From Candidatus Saccharimonadales bacterium (GTDB lineage: Bacteria > Patescibacteriota > Saccharimonadia > Saccharimonadales > UBA10212): a stretch of 34,628 nucleotides of DNA. How positions within the stretch are numbered: the first letter of the stretch is position 1; each line of letters opens with the position of its first letter. The stretch covers positions 1-34,628 of the forward strand of contig JANWHE010000017.1 of assembly GCA_025450575.1 (NCBI GenBank). The letters are read 5' to 3'. Under the pieces are notes generated by a model that was not told where the DNA came from, searched no databases, and worked only from the letters and a program-made list of their open reading frames with translations. Both the position numbers and the translations under genes were made by a program. Of this stretch, positions 854-21,099 are shown piece after piece.

Positions 854-882
854 TTGCTTATCTCTCTTCAACATGCTATAAT
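854..882 (+). promoter_or_regulatory. Promoter of the tmRNA gene
   Basis: TTGCTT (854-859), a 17-bp spacer and TATAAT (877-882) with an upstream TGC (extended -10). Predicted start is near 889, giving a roughly 54-nt leader to be removed from the 5' end of tmRNA. The same two hexamers and spacing recur in front of the 700-nt RNA candidate at 20804-20832. Confidence 0.75.
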
Positions 883-5469: not shown

Positions 5470-5794
5470 TTTGATCCTCCTTTAAATAAATCTCTAAAGC
5501 GTCCAGCCGGCTTTCCATGAACTGCTTGTACCATTCGATGTACTGAGCGGCGTCGGCCATCGCTTGCGGTGCTAAACTCACTAATTGCTCCTTTCCGTTG
5601 CGTCGTTTAATTACCAATTTGGCCCTTTCTAGCACTTTGAGATGCTTGGATACGGCCGCGAACGTCAGATCATAGTTTTTGGCGAGCTGGCTGACGGACA
5701 GTTCAGCCTCGGAAACACGGCGCAGGATGTCGCGCCGGGTGTTATCCGCCAATGCGCCAAAAGTGTTATCTAGAGTAAATGTATATTCAACCAT
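5456..5794 (-). CDS. ArsR/SmtB-like winged-helix repressor
   Basis: A 112-residue ArsR-type repressor: LADNTRRDILRRVSEAELSVSQLAKNYDLTFAAVSKHLKVLERAKLVIKRRNGKEQLVSLAP contains the helix-turn-helix (recognition helix AAVSKHLKVLE) and the beta-wing. The metal-binding ELCVCDL motif of true ArsR is absent (ELSVSQL, no cysteine), so a metal sensor of the alpha-3 type is excluded; this is the SRPBCC-associated subgroup. The promoter is near-ideal (TTGACA-17-TATCAT) and the start codon lies inside a 20-bp palindrome, so autoregulation is very likely. There is no Shine-Dalgarno and the predicted transcript starts about two bases before the ATG. Confidence 0.88.
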   Translation of the reverse strand: MVEYTFTLDNTFGALADNTRRDILRRVSEAELSVSQLAKNYDLTFAAVSKHLKVLERAKLVIKRRNGKEQLVSLAPQAMADAAQYIEWYKQFMESRLDALEIYLKEDQNGRQ

Positions 5795-17351: not shown

Positions 17352-17426
<75 letters not shown>

Positions 17427-17549
17427 TTGTTTTTTAAATACTAAAATAATCCCTCGAGGTAGAATTTAGTTTTTATTTTTAAGAGCGGTCAGTCACGATA
17501 CTCTTTGAACTGTTTAAACACTAGCATAAATTTGCGTTTTACTCAAGCT

Positions 17550-17558
17550 TTATCCACA
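17550..17558 (+). promoter_or_regulatory. Isolated consensus DnaA box
   Basis: TTATCCACA, the exact high-affinity DnaA box, in an AT-rich stretch between tRNA-Glu and the LPXTG gene. No cluster of further boxes and no dnaA or dnaN nearby, so an origin is not supported; it may be chance or a DnaA titration/regulation site. Confidence 0.3.
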
Positions 17559-17580
17559 AGTTTTGCAAAGCAACGTCATC

Positions 17581-17608
17581 AAAAAACCCTCGCTTTTTAC
17601 GGCGAGGG
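17581..17608 (-). terminator. Terminator of the LPXTG gene
   Basis: Minus strand CCCTCGC (17608-17602) / GCGAGGG (17593-17587), 8-nt loop, then six T (17586-17581). Lies 83 bases after the stop of the LPXTG protein. Confidence 0.75.
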
Positions 17609-17661
17609 AATTTTGATCGTCCAAAGGACGAACGAACGGCCAGTCACTGCTTTGTTGTCAT

Positions 17662-17680
17662 GGCAGATAACTGCCTTTTT
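17662..17680 (+). terminator. Plus-strand terminator between tRNA-Glu and the LPXTG gene
   Basis: GGCAG (17662-17666) / CTGCC (17671-17675) with loop ATAA, then five T. It could end transcription that reads through from tRNA-Glu. The 240 bases between hold no other feature besides the DnaA box and the opposite terminator. Confidence 0.5.
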
Positions 17681-17690
17681 GAAATTTTTA

Positions 17691-18362
17691 TTATCTGCGG
17701 CGGCGGGTAATTACCGCGTGGGCGGCAGTACCAGCAGCCGACGCGCCGGCAAAAACGCCAACTACGTCACCGGCACCGGTATTCGGTAAAGTGGTGGATT
17801 TGGGGGTAGGGGTCGGTGTGGGGGTCGGCGTAGGAGTTGGGCAGTTAAGCTTAGCTTGGAACTGGACCTCCTCTGTATCGGAAGTCAGCGGTCCAAGGCT
17901 GCCAATATTTACGCCACCGCTCAGAATGCCGTCAGACAGGGTTCTGAGCACGCTCCCACCGTAGTCTAACAGTTGGGTAGAACCGCTGACATAATCAGCG
18001 GTCGTAGCCTGACTGGTGTTGACGCCGGCGTTAGCCGTAACGATCATGTTATCGATGTTGTTGTCAGCGCTCAGGCTAACCTGCGAACCATGGCTAGTCG
18101 AAGAAGCGCTGTTTAAGGTAGCTGAAACCTTCACGTTAGTAAGAGTTTCAGGACCGGTATTGTGGACACGGACACGGAAAGCGACAGTGTCGCCACAAGC
18201 CACGGTGATATTATCGGCGAACGCACTATTGGTAGTGACGTCTTTGACGCGATAAATATCTCCCTGCTCGATCTGTCCATAGCCGGCAGCCATCGCGACA
18301 GAAGGAAATACAACTGCGGATACGGCGGCTAGGGCGACAGCAAGTTTAGTGAATCGAATCAT
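17691..18362 (-). CDS. LPXTG-anchored surface protein
   Basis: A 223-residue secreted protein. Signal peptide about 1-25 (LAVALAAVSAVVFPSVAMA|AG). The middle part (about 30-170) has DUF11/conserved-repeat-like character: VACGDTVAFRVRVHNTGPETLTNVKVSATLN, typical of Ig-like adhesive wall proteins. It is followed by a (TP)n linker and a sorting signal, LPNTG (192-196), hydrophobic stretch and RRRR tail. A sortase would cleave after Thr and link it to the wall; none is encoded in this window. Shine-Dalgarno AAAGGAG eight bases before the ATG. It borders the inverted-repeat island on the right. Confidence 0.85.
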   Translation of the reverse strand: MIRFTKLAVALAAVSAVVFPSVAMAAGYGQIEQGDIYRVKDVTTNSAFADNITVACGDTVAFRVRVHNTGPETLTNVKVSATLNSASSTSHGSQVSLSADNNIDNMIVTANAGVNTSQATTADYVSGSTQLLDYGGSVLRTLSDGILSGGVNIGSLGPLTSDTEEVQFQAKLNCPTPTPTPTPTPTPKSTTLPNTGAGDVVGVFAGASAAGTAAHAVITRRRR

Positions 18363-18410: not shown

Positions 18411-18436
18411 CAAACTAGATAGTTATCGGGCTTTAA
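18411..18436 (+). repeat. Left terminal inverted repeat of the GC-rich island
   Basis: Reads inward CAAACTAGATAGTTATCGGG then CTTTAA. It aligns with the right copy (19860-19836, minus strand): a 14-bp identical core AACTAGATAGTTAT, then GGG and CTTTAA with one base slipped on each side. Confidence 0.6.
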
Positions 18437-18447
18437 ATTGAGGATCC

Positions 18448-18477
18448 GGGTCCCGCGCGGTTACCCGCGCGGGACCC
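18448..18477 (-). terminator. GC-rich hairpin after the island gene
   Basis: Perfect 13-bp stem GGGTCCCGCGCGG (18448-18460) / CCGCGCGGGACCC (18465-18477), loop TTAC. It begins nine bases after the gene's stop. There is no T-run on the transcribed strand, unlike the other terminators here; this is a terminator style more common in high-GC bacteria. Confidence 0.55.
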
Positions 18478-18485
18478 TTCTCCGA

Positions 18486-19622
18486 CTACCCGCCGAATCC
18501 GCCGCTAGACGGATCGACGTTGAACGTCATGGTCTGGGTATTGCTGTTGACGCCGTTGGCGGTCGCGTAGACCTTCACGGTCGTCGTCACGACGTTGCTC
18601 GTGCTGTTGAACCCGTTGACCCGGAACTCGAACTGCCCGTTGCCCTGGCAGGACGGCGAGCCGCCCTGCGAGTAGCAGTTGATGCCCGTCACCTGGCTGT
18701 TGGAGTCCTGGCTCTGGGCATTGAGCGAGATCGGAGCCCCGTTGTCATCGGAGGCGTCGCACTTCACGATGACGCTGCCGCCGCCGGTGATTTCCTGCGG
18801 TCCGGTGCACGCCACGTTCGTGGAGTGCGTTACCGGAGTCGTGGTCGTCGTCGGGGTGGTTGGGGTCGTCACCGTGGTCGTGGTGTGGACCGTGGTGGTC
18901 GTACCGGTCGTCGTCGGAGTCGTGGGCGTCACCGGCACCTGAGTGGCGATGAAGCACACGGCCTGCCCGTTGACGTACGTCAGCGTGAACGGCGGAGTAC
19001 AGGTGTAGACCGTCGACGTTGTGCTGGTCGCCCAGCGCTCGTACGTCGACTCGAAGGTCTTCACCGAACTGAAGACCAGCACCTGCTTCGTCGGCTTCGG
19101 CAGCTTGTGCCGCACCGGAATCATAATGTTCCGGTTGTGGCAGTTCGCCTTGGTGCCGACGATCCAGTACTGGCCGCCGATCTTGACCATGTGCCAGCCG
19201 CACACCTCCCAGCCCGCCTGCCAGCGGTCGAGGAAGTAGCGGTGGTAGCGGTCGGTGTTCTTGAAGGTGTCGCCGGCGTGGAACTTCCACGAAGCGATCG
19301 TCGTCGGGTCGATACAGCCGGCGCCGCTTGTCGGCGGGCCTTCGTTGATCGACGCGATGACGTGATTCACCGTCTCGAACTGCTTGATCTGCTCCTCGAC
19401 CGTCTTCTTGACGACGATCTTGGTGTGGCTCGTCGTCGTAACCGTCGCCGGCTCGAACGTGCAGGAATAACCCGGCACGTTGAATGGCGAGGGGCAGTTG
19501 TCCAGCGACTTGTTCTGTGTCGCACCGGCCTTCGGCGCGATTGTCGCGGCGGTCATCAGACCGAACGCGAGCAGGACCAGAAGGCCACCCACGAGGGTGG
19601 CCCGCTTGCGCATGTTACGCAT
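18486..19622 (-). CDS. Exported Thr-rich-linker protein of foreign codon usage
   Basis: A 378-residue protein, not recognised. Signal peptide MRNMRKRATLVGGLLVLLAF... to about residue 34 (APKAGA|TQ). First domain about 37-230 with many Trp/Tyr/His and Cys (SWKFHAGDTFKNTDRYHRYF, GWEVCGWHMVKIGGQYWIVG, ANCHNRN). A Thr/Pro linker at about 233-272 follows, then a beta-rich C-terminal domain with paired Cys (NVACTG..VKCDAS; NCYSQ..PSCQG) ending in SSGGFGG. Shine-Dalgarno AAGGAGG, eight bases before the ATG, is among the strongest in the window. Codons mostly end in C or G, unlike neighbours. Probably surface-exposed; no sorting motif or lipobox. Confidence 0.7.
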   Translation of the reverse strand: MRNMRKRATLVGGLLVLLAFGLMTAATIAPKAGATQNKSLDNCPSPFNVPGYSCTFEPATVTTTSHTKIVVKKTVEEQIKQFETVNHVIASINEGPPTSGAGCIDPTTIASWKFHAGDTFKNTDRYHRYFLDRWQAGWEVCGWHMVKIGGQYWIVGTKANCHNRNIMIPVRHKLPKPTKQVLVFSSVKTFESTYERWATSTTSTVYTCTPPFTLTYVNGQAVCFIATQVPVTPTTPTTTGTTTTVHTTTTVTTPTTPTTTTTPVTHSTNVACTGPQEITGGGSVIVKCDASDDNGAPISLNAQSQDSNSQVTGINCYSQGGSPSCQGNGQFEFRVNGFNSTSNVVTTTVKVYATANGVNSNTQTMTFNVDPSSGGFGG

Positions 19623-19835
19623 CTCCCATCCCTCCTTAGGGTGGTCGACGTTTGTCGGCGAGGCCTTGTAGGGCCCTACGCAGCCCCGCCGCCCTGTCCG
19701 TCGGACAGAGAACGCTACTGATGAAATTCACCAATATCGTACCCTGCCCGACTAAAACCAGCAGCGAAGCATGAATGTGAAGGTAGTCGGAATGGGTTTA
19801 GCAGCCTGCGAGCAAACGAATGCTCAAGCGGCTAT

Positions 19836-19860
19836 TAAAGACCCATAACTATCTAGTTCG
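19836..19860 (-). repeat. Right terminal inverted repeat of the GC-rich island
   Basis: Minus strand, inward: CGAACTAGATAGTTATGGG then TCTTTAA. Partner of the repeat at 18411-18436. The 210 bases between it and the island gene are its leader region and hold no other gene. Confidence 0.6.
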
Positions 19861-19869
19861 CTTTTATTG

Positions 19870-20013
19870 AAAAACAACAAAAGCCGGAATCCTTGCGGAT
19901 TCCATCTGTGACTGATTTTTAAGGTTACACCTCACCCGCCACAGCTGAGAGGAGTTACGTATCTGTTACTCCCCCTTAAGAGATTTCCACCTCATCGCAT
20001 GTGTTGCGAGGAT
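19870..20013 (-). ncRNA. Candidate small structured RNA, about 140 nt
   Basis: A free-standing unit with no ORF: promoter TTGACA-17-TAGAGT and a terminator with a GCAA tetraloop, GGAATCC (19903-19897) / GGATTCC (19892-19886), followed by TTTTGTTGTTTTT. Between them are TCGCA-ACACA-TGCGA near the 5' end; a hairpin with GGAGT and ACTCC arms around AACAGATACGTA; and CTCAGC/GC..TGAG further on. AAGGGGGAGTAAC recalls the start of the yybP-ykoY manganese riboswitch, but the rest does not fit. It is not an SRP RNA (no GGAA loop with the AGCAG side). It could be an attenuating leader for the island gene 250 bases downstream, or a regulatory RNA. Confidence 0.5.
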
Positions 20014-20019
20014 GTCAAT

Positions 20020-20048
20020 ACTCTACCACAAGATATCGCTAATGTCAA
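20020..20048 (-). promoter_or_regulatory. Promoter of the 140-nt RNA candidate
   Basis: Minus strand: consensus TTGACA (20048-20043), 17-bp spacer, TAGAGT (20025-20020). Start near 20013. Confidence 0.6.
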
Positions 20049-20094
20049 TAGTCCTTATAATGTTTCGAGCTTAAGCACAATAGGTATTAATAAA

Positions 20095-20797
20095 ATGAAA
20101 AGCCGCCCGAAGGCGGATGCCTAAGAGCGGCGGAAAGAACCGAGCGTTAATCGTTGGATGTGTGGGCCAGAGCCCGGAAGACAGGATTCGGCTCCTGTGA
20201 CCTTCCGGGCTCCGGCGGGGAGGCTCGATGCGATGTGTAGGCACGCAGCCCATCGCACCCAGCTGGGTGGTTCTGGCGAAGCGAGCGCGAAGCCGTTTGC
20301 CGTTTTGCCGGCCGGGCTCGCGGGCGCACGAGTTCGCGCTCCTCTGCAGAGAAGCCGACACAGAGTCCGCCGCAGAGAGACTCTCAACTCTCCGTTACGG
20401 AAACTTCGCCAGAACGCTTATAGCGGCATGACGCCGCGAACTTTGGGAACCGACTCGGTATCGTATCCGCCTCTTAGTCCTTTGTATTATCAACGTTAGG
20501 GACTGCAGAGGTTAGACGATACCCGTCCTGCCGCCATGATGCGTACACGACAGTACTGACGCCTCGCGTGAGAAAAGAGCGGCTTCTCGGCTTCTCTTGT
20601 CACTGGTGGCGATGCGGTTCCCTGGGTGTGCATCCTGTTTCGCTATCACTAAACAGGAGCGGACCCGAGCTTTTCCAAGAATCAGCGCGCCACAGACAAT
20701 CTGTTATCTATACCGCGCTGACCCTTGGACAATTTTGTCCAACTATAATCTCAAGGTTCAAAAAGCGAGGGAGTCCGTTGCCAGTCTCGACCTCGTT
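20095..20797 (-). ncRNA. Candidate large structured noncoding RNA, about 700 nt
   Basis: No convincing ORF in either strand; it has a near-consensus promoter and a clean terminator. Stems visible on the minus strand, in order: a continuous 15-bp helix 20728-20714 / 20689-20675 capped by ACAGA-TTG-TCTGT; TCCTGTTT / AAACAGGA (20658-20651 / 20640-20633) extended by GGGT...ACCC; GGTATCGT / ACGATACC (20523-20516 / 20464-20457) enclosing CCTCT / AGAGG and AGTCC / GGACT; GCGGC / GCCGC; GCGATG / CATCGC; and GCCGGAGCCCGGAAG (20216-20202) / 20180-20166 plus ACAGGA / TCCTGT across a 3-nt bulge. A long-range 8-bp helix GCGGCGGA (20373-20366) / TCCGCCGC (20134-20127) can close the 3' half. I do not recognise the family: the RNase P P4 motif, group I/II cores and rRNA words are not found. 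Confidence 0.6.
20097..20116 (-). terminator. Terminator of the 700-nt RNA candidate
   Basis: Minus strand CCGCC (20116-20112), TTCG tetraloop, GGCGG (20107-20103), then CTTTTCATTTTATT. Correct polarity only for minus-strand transcription. Confidence 0.8.
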
Positions 20798-20803
20798 ACA
20801 ACC

Positions 20804-20832
20804 ATTATAACTCATCTATAGGACAAAAGCAA
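20804..20832 (-). promoter_or_regulatory. Promoter of the 700-nt RNA candidate
   Basis: Minus strand TTGCTT (20832-20827), 17-bp spacer, TATAAT (20809-20804): identical hexamers and spacing to the tmRNA promoter. Start near 20797. A weak hairpin with five T at about 20791-20761 lies just inside the transcript and might cause early termination. Confidence 0.7.
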
Positions 20833-20844
20833 TCCCGCTATTTG

Positions 20845-21099
20845 TCAAATTTCTCCGAGAACTCTGCTCTTTCCTACTTTAGACAAGGCATCAGCGTGAG
20901 CGTCTTCTATAAGTTTCCGAGTTTCAGCTTGGTGTCTCTCTGTTACGCTGGGGTGATTATCAAGCAGCGCCAGCCCTCTAAGGGCTAGGTCTTGAAAGCG
21001 GGCTACCGTCAGCTCTTCTTCTGAGGGCCGCTGGACCGGCATACTGTCTCTTCTGGCTTCGGCTCCCGCGCTGGAATTAGCCAGCTCTGGCTGTCCCAT
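20845..21099 (-). CDS. Small helical protein of unknown function, 84 residues
   Basis: Not recognised. An acidic/basic, cysteine-free 84-residue protein; the first 27 residues are probably disordered (MGQPELANSSAGAEARRDSM) and the rest helical (EEELTVARFQDLALRGLALL ... HQAETRKLIEDAHADALSKV). It has its own promoter (TTGCCA-17-TATAAT) and Shine-Dalgarno (AGAGGA), so it is likely real. The promoter of the 700-nt RNA overlaps the space right after its stop, so read-through from this gene into the RNA is possible. Confidence 0.6.
   Translation of the reverse strand: MGQPELANSSAGAEARRDSMPVQRPSEEELTVARFQDLALRGLALLDNHPSVTERHQAETRKLIEDAHADALSKVGKSRVLGEI

Follow-up and report, generated by a model that had tools for sequence, protein, structure and literature searches.

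Organization of the locus

The window analyzed here, the whole 34,628-nt stretch of contig JANWHE010000017.1 (Candidatus Saccharimonadales bacterium, assembly GCA_025450575.1), contains a minus-strand stretch of about 700 nt (20797–20095) that is free of protein genes. This stretch is flanked by an 84-aa open reading frame (ORF; 20845–21099) and by a separate leader starting at about 20013, beyond which lie a GC-rich ORF for a predicted secreted protein and a gene for a DUF11-domain protein (Table 1). Likewise on the minus strand, the 84-aa ORF carries promoter-like boxes of its own and is not similar to the small ORFs at comparable positions in two relatives (G001 and G002).

The original prediction assigned to the stretch a TTGCTT-17-TATAAT promoter with the same boxes as that of the tmRNA. 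Both sites were found: the exact pattern occurs twice in the window, at 20832–20804 (minus strand) and at 854–882 (plus strand) ahead of the tmRNA, against an expectation of 0 from shuffled sequence. The terminator at 20116–20103 lies on the same strand as this promoter, so that its presence and matching polarity stand as described; over its UUCG-capped form, the minimum free energy (MFE) fold at this site favors a longer alternative hairpin. The stretch is also gene-free as claimed, in that its ORFs (up to 113 aa) are chance-like and tblastn against the syntenic loci found no relative of any of them.

Table 1. Features of the locus, listed in the direction of the minus strand
Feature	Positions	Strand	Basis
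Promoter TTGCTT-17-TATAAT of the large RNA	20804–20832	−	Exact pattern; 5 relatives have −10-like boxes at this place
Large structured gene-free transcription unit (putative ncRNA)	20095–20797	−	z −11.4 / −10.1; no Rfam family; no conserved ORF
5′ hairpin, 5+6 bp	20766–20795	−	Pair probability 0.99; 5′ hairpin predicted in most counterparts too
Weak long-range closing helix, 5+6 bp	20137–20759	−	Probability 0.97–0.98; no better than shuffles
25-bp hairpin, one internal mismatch	20674–20729	−	Mean probability 0.97
Sub-domain closed by 8-bp helix	20445–20622	−	Probability 0.99
Sub-domain closed by 13-bp helix	20270–20415	−	Probability 0.99; 12 nt 100% complementary
21-bp bulged hairpin near 3′ end, 15+6 bp	20166–20216	−	Probability 0.95–1.00
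Intrinsic terminator region	20097–20130	−	UUCG stem 20116–20103 and T-rich tail
Separate promoter TTGACA-17-TAGAGT of the downstream leader	20020–20048	−	Similar boxes upstream of leader in relatives
Conserved leader RNA outside Rfam, preceding the secreted-protein ORF	19783–20013	−	Core motif in relatives
Leader core motif CTAGATAGTTATGGGTCTTTAA, 5′ arm of inverted pair	19835–19856	−	Motif search in family and order genomes
GC-rich ORF, 378 aa, predicted secreted protein	18486–19622	−	Synonymous-permutation z −7.3; GC3 0.90; no Pfam family
Inverted partner of leader motif, between secreted ORF and DUF11 ORF	18415–18436	+	Pairs in other genomes too
DUF11-domain protein gene, also structured	17691–18362	−	Pfam PF01345; permutation z −3.2

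Folding of the non-coding unit and extent of the folded block

Read on the minus strand, the unit has an MFE of −331 kcal/mol, equivalent to a z of −11.4 against shuffled controls, and an independent folding run returned a z of −10.1; such extreme values are approximate, because the script-based folding tests used only 3–30 shuffles. Twenty random 700-nt tiles, folded on both strands, gave z values from +2.4 to −4.3. The plus strand of the same stretch is also strongly folded (z −8.1 and −12.2 in two runs). Strand assignment from folding alone therefore fails for this unit, and its strand is set by the promoter and terminator; since the two strands fold about equally, a DNA-level cause could also account for this part of the locus.

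Several elements of the proposed secondary structure were recovered. The 15-bp helix at 20728–20714/20689–20675 is real and forms part of a 25-bp helix (arms 20729–20704/20699–20674, one mismatch, mean probability 0.97); the 21-bp bulged helix was located at 20216–20166 (15+6 bp, probability 0.95–1.00); and several closing helices of 5–13 bp are present, where nested domains closed by 8-bp helices had been described. Two competing folds had been suggested as well, an idea that is unsupported because the competing 5′ hairpin (TTGGACAA/TTGTCCAA), while present in the sequence, is scarcely populated, with no pair probability above 0.16. The long-range closing helix (arms 20759–20755/20141–20137 and 20743–20738/20158–20153) was equaled by 336 of 500 shuffles. 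A conserved closing helix was accordingly dropped as a shared hallmark in the case of 20797–20095, but kept for two relatives (G007 and G014). Antisense pairing of the large RNA with its own downstream transcript was no better for cognate than for non-cognate pairs.

A scan of the genome for local hairpins in 600-nt tiles (3982 tiles, about 609 kb of the 643-kb assembly) placed tile 19801–20400 of the minus strand first, as the most hairpin-rich of all (score −32.9), and tile 19201–19800 of the same strand second (score −28.1; mean −3.4, sd 5.5). Both outrank the tile containing the 5S rRNA, and tile 17401–18000 comes tenth. From these three ranks it follows that a hyper-structured block of about 3.4 kb spans roughly 20800 to 17400, reaching far past the non-coding unit, which forms one end of it. 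The putative structured RNA placed at 20095–20832 by the original prediction is confirmed in its folding, but the extension of the structure through the leader and the neighboring coding sequence had been overlooked.

Structure in the neighboring coding sequences

The secreted-protein ORF has a GC content of 63% and a GC3 of 0.90, as compared with a genome mean of 0.65. A Pfam search of its product returned no family, and secretion of this and the related proteins was called by eye from signal-peptide-like N-termini. Compared with versions whose synonymous codons had been permuted within the gene, so that protein and codon usage stayed unchanged, the native ORF proved far more strongly folded (z −7.3), as did its counterparts in five relatives (G001, −7.2; G002, −5.3; G003, −7.0; G007, −6.9; G004, −4.2) and the GC-rich ORF beside the leader in G011 (−4.4); eight other genes of the window, serving as controls, gave z values of −1.5 to +1.6. 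In all 6 ORFs tested on both strands, the sense strand shows the larger excess of folding energy, and limiting pairs to a span of no more than 60 nt gives the same result. Synonymous codon choice in this ORF and its counterparts favors strong local mRNA folding, and it is from the sense-strand bias of these coding sequences that we argue for selection on RNA folding in the locus.

At about −5.1 kcal per 100 nt, the secreted-protein ORF would rank second among about 480 in a genome-wide run, this value coming from a separate test because the run itself took the antisense ORF 18438–19721. The DUF11 gene, at −4.7 kcal per 100 nt, falls near the top of the same run.

The leader RNA and its inverted motif

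The leader core (CTAGRTAGTYATGGGKCTTTAA) is present in 10 of the family's 16 genomes and in 26 of the order's 393; reversed-pattern controls gave 0 matches, and a few of the matches found outside the family with 2 mismatches are not leader-like. The same conserved leader also precedes GC-rich secreted-protein genes at loci L052–L083. Alignment of the leader with MAFFT and RNAalifold was too gappy to yield a consensus.

In several genomes, the motif has an inverted partner 1.4–2.3 kb downstream. At motif position 10 (T or C), the two arms agree in 8 of 8 genomes holding both copies, a count that is not controlled for phylogeny. The ends of the message could pair around the secreted ORF through these inverted copies, or the copies could instead be the ends of an exchangeable cassette.

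A second type of long structured leader was observed before GC-rich ORFs at four loci downstream of a histidine kinase (L088, L091, L092, and L094), without an Rfam match at any of them. Its sequence, ACCGGG..ACAGGUGG..UUAAUAARUCAGAUCAUUACAG, is conserved between L091 and L094.

Positional counterparts in related genomes

The original prediction had proposed looking for the intergenic sequence in related genomes, a search that came back without a sequence relative. Querying 61 genomes of the order, the window's own genus included, with blastn identified none, and nhmmer recovered no match in the syntenic loci of relatives. The only blastn matches among relatives, phages, and plasmids were weak (E at least 0.2) and covered about 5% of the query, mostly at the 3′ end; none of those to phages and plasmids was significant, and the two matches from an 18-mer scan of viral contigs are chance-like.

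The order of the locus (histidine kinase, small ORF, gap, leader, GC-rich secreted ORF, and DUF11 protein) is partly or wholly kept in relatives. Five of them, all from the same family (G001, G007, G011, G014, and G004; G000 denotes the window's own genome, and L085 and G007 are one contig), have in this gap a strongly folded unit of 480–760 nt that is furnished with a TATAAT-like box and a terminator and adjoins the leader on its upstream side; in relatives, promoters and terminators were called by eye. The unit at 20797–20095 has this same arrangement of promoter, folded body, and terminator immediately before the conserved leader. The large RNA unit is missing from this position in G002, G003, G009, and the majority of the other genomes with the leader, which indicates that it is dispensable. 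Three further loci were considered and dropped as counterparts: L070 (G179) holds a tRNA and repeats, while L069 (G311) and L077 (G257) appear to contain GC-rich ORFs.

Sequence similarity among counterparts is found mainly at their ends, the interiors having turned over almost completely. Between G011 and G014, 0 of 200 shuffles were as good at the 3′ end and 2 of 200 at the 5′ end; between G001 and G007, 0 of 200 were as good at the 5′ end, with a weaker signal inside. Additionally, the G014 counterpart has a perfect 16-bp closing helix, with an equivalent one of 8 bp in G011. For 20797–20095 itself, the 3′ end resembles that of G001 at a level reached by 6 of 200 shuffles, uncorrected, and lost on correction for 45 comparisons. 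As its end similarity is thus not convincing, the unit is placed in this positional class by position and architecture, and its homology to the counterparts is a supposition.

Comparison with known RNA families

A cmscan of the whole window against all 4227 Rfam families at gathering thresholds returned no ROOL, GOLLD, or OLE and no match for 20797–20095; among the models without a match to the unit are those of RNase P, group I and group II introns, tmRNA, rRNA, and SRP. Searching 19700–20900 with permissive filters at E ≤ 5 recovered no credible family, the two matches obtained (E 3.6–3.7) being chance-like and below gathering score. The absence of a known-family identity, which had been claimed by eye, is borne out by these searches. 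A search of the literature on structured RNAs of Saccharibacteria found nothing relevant.

The suggested likeness to OLE, GOLLD, and ROOL goes no further than size. What is supported is a unit that is large, strongly structured, apparently independent, and outside Rfam. Like those three, the unit is non-coding, several hundred nucleotides long, and built of many stacked helices. In OLE, ROOL, and GOLLD, sequence conservation and covariation extend over many species (PMC12286853), with conserved motifs and Rfam models, whereas 20797–20095 matches no model and is not conserved in sequence. ROOL and GOLLD are located in phages or prophages, often near tRNA islands (PMC12286853); the present unit, in contrast, is chromosomal, between a histidine kinase and a secreted-protein gene, and the nearest tRNAs in the window are at least 2.7 kb away. 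Homo-oligomeric particles are a feature of ROOL, GOLLD, and OLE.

With the RF00010 model, no RNase P RNA was recovered from 5 of 21 genomes (G000, G001, G008, G011, and G023), some of them at least 90% complete. The RNA missing from these five could be divergent, or absent from the assembly.

Interpretation and alternative explanations

We interpret 20797–20095 as a fast-evolving, structured, stand-alone ncRNA in a locus selected for foldedness itself, and assign this reading a probability of roughly 0.55. Transcription of the unit would run along the minus strand, from a sigma-70-type promoter to a terminator that are both its own, and the unit would belong to an undescribed set of very fast-evolving large RNAs in one Saccharibacteria family, placed directly upstream of the conserved leader and the GC-rich secreted-protein gene. 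Selection would maintain dense local folding, rather than a particular sequence, in the RNA, in the leader, and in the secreted-protein coding sequence. Transcripts of the locus may then be compact and nuclease-resistant, and hence persistent, and the stand-alone RNA may accompany the message as a long-lived scaffold, sponge, or decoy that works by its folded bulk. With or beside the secreted-protein message, the role of the large RNA is probably one in transcript persistence.

Because the two strands fold equally, the main rival where the RNA itself is concerned is turnover of hairpins at the DNA level: hairpin-rich intergenic DNA without RNA function, arising from inverted duplications or maintained as DNA hairpins at a recombination-prone hot spot of secreted-gene exchange. 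The near-complete turnover of interiors among relatives, the strong folding of both strands, and the inverted motif copies flanking the secreted ORF are all consistent with such a process. It is nonetheless unlikely, as promoter and terminator share polarity in several genomes, and a DNA process would not favor the shaping of structure by synonymous codons with a sense-strand excess in every one of the ORFs compared. Next in probability, and likewise unlikely, is that the secreted-protein operon has a long, regulated 5′ leader, similar to an attenuator or riboswitch, of which the unit is the upstream part and the terminator a read-through point. Like structured 5′ leaders and riboswitches, the unit lies on the same strand as a protein operon and immediately upstream of it and its leader; additionally, at loci L091 and L094 in other Saccharibacteria, a structured leader of ~800 nt that shares sequence between the two runs into a GC-rich ORF. 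This explanation is disfavored by the unit's own terminator, by the separate TTGACA promoter of the downstream leader, repeated in relatives, and by a sequence turnover that is unlike a ligand-binding aptamer; moreover, many leader-bearing genomes lack the large RNA, and the gene occurs in relatives with it or without it.

The remaining two explanations are very improbable. A known class of large RNAs (OLE, ROOL, GOLLD, RNase P, or introns), with the unit as a divergent member, would match it in size and in the many helices, and no RNase P RNA was found elsewhere in the window's genome, yet none of these classes was matched even with permissive filters, and the hypervariable sequence of the unit contrasts with the conservation of the named classes. 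RNase P identity in particular is rejected because G007 and G004 carry an ordinary RNase P RNA in addition to the positional counterpart; as far as sequence models reach, a known large RNA class is excluded. The stretch could equally hardly encode a missed small protein: sense ORFs of 60–96 aa are present by chance in GC-rich sequence, but none is matched by tblastn in the syntenic loci, and that of 96 aa continues through the terminator.

Returning to a stand-alone ncRNA within a locus selected for folding, we tentatively extend this to a chromosomal locus in which ncRNA, leader, and the whole secreted-protein coding sequence are all selected for folding while sequence is free to turn over, a generalization that is possible but doubtful. 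Searches for large structured RNAs usually rely on conserved sequence or covariation and would miss RNAs of this kind, because folding is kept here and sequence is not. The codon-permutation result offers a simple, testable sign that, within one bacterial locus, selection on RNA structure spans coding and non-coding sequence alike.

Genome-scale ordered RNA structure has been described in RNA viruses, where, as here, coding and non-coding parts are folded beyond the codon-preserving expectation; the viral case concerns an RNA genome, whereas the present one is a bacterial chromosomal locus of about 3.4 kb. Long-lived mRNAs with stabilizing 5′ hairpins occur among those of abundant surface proteins, and the product here is likewise predicted to be surface or secreted and its untranslated region is hairpin-rich; the difference is that folding at this locus runs through the whole ORF and a separate non-coding unit. 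Saccharibacteria live on other bacteria, and RNAs of this kind could bear on the expression of surface proteins on the host. Perhaps an ordered-RNA-structure locus in an epibiotic bacterium serves a persistent, protected, or exported RNA.

Elsewhere in the same genome, structure beyond codon permutation was observed in other GC-rich or secreted-looking ORFs (G000:C16:162289-163026, G000:C25:19353-19871, and G000:C24:17514-18461). Additionally, the 23S rRNA at L111 (G000:C2) appears by eye to carry an extra long-hairpin insertion at about 5500–5600 on the minus strand.
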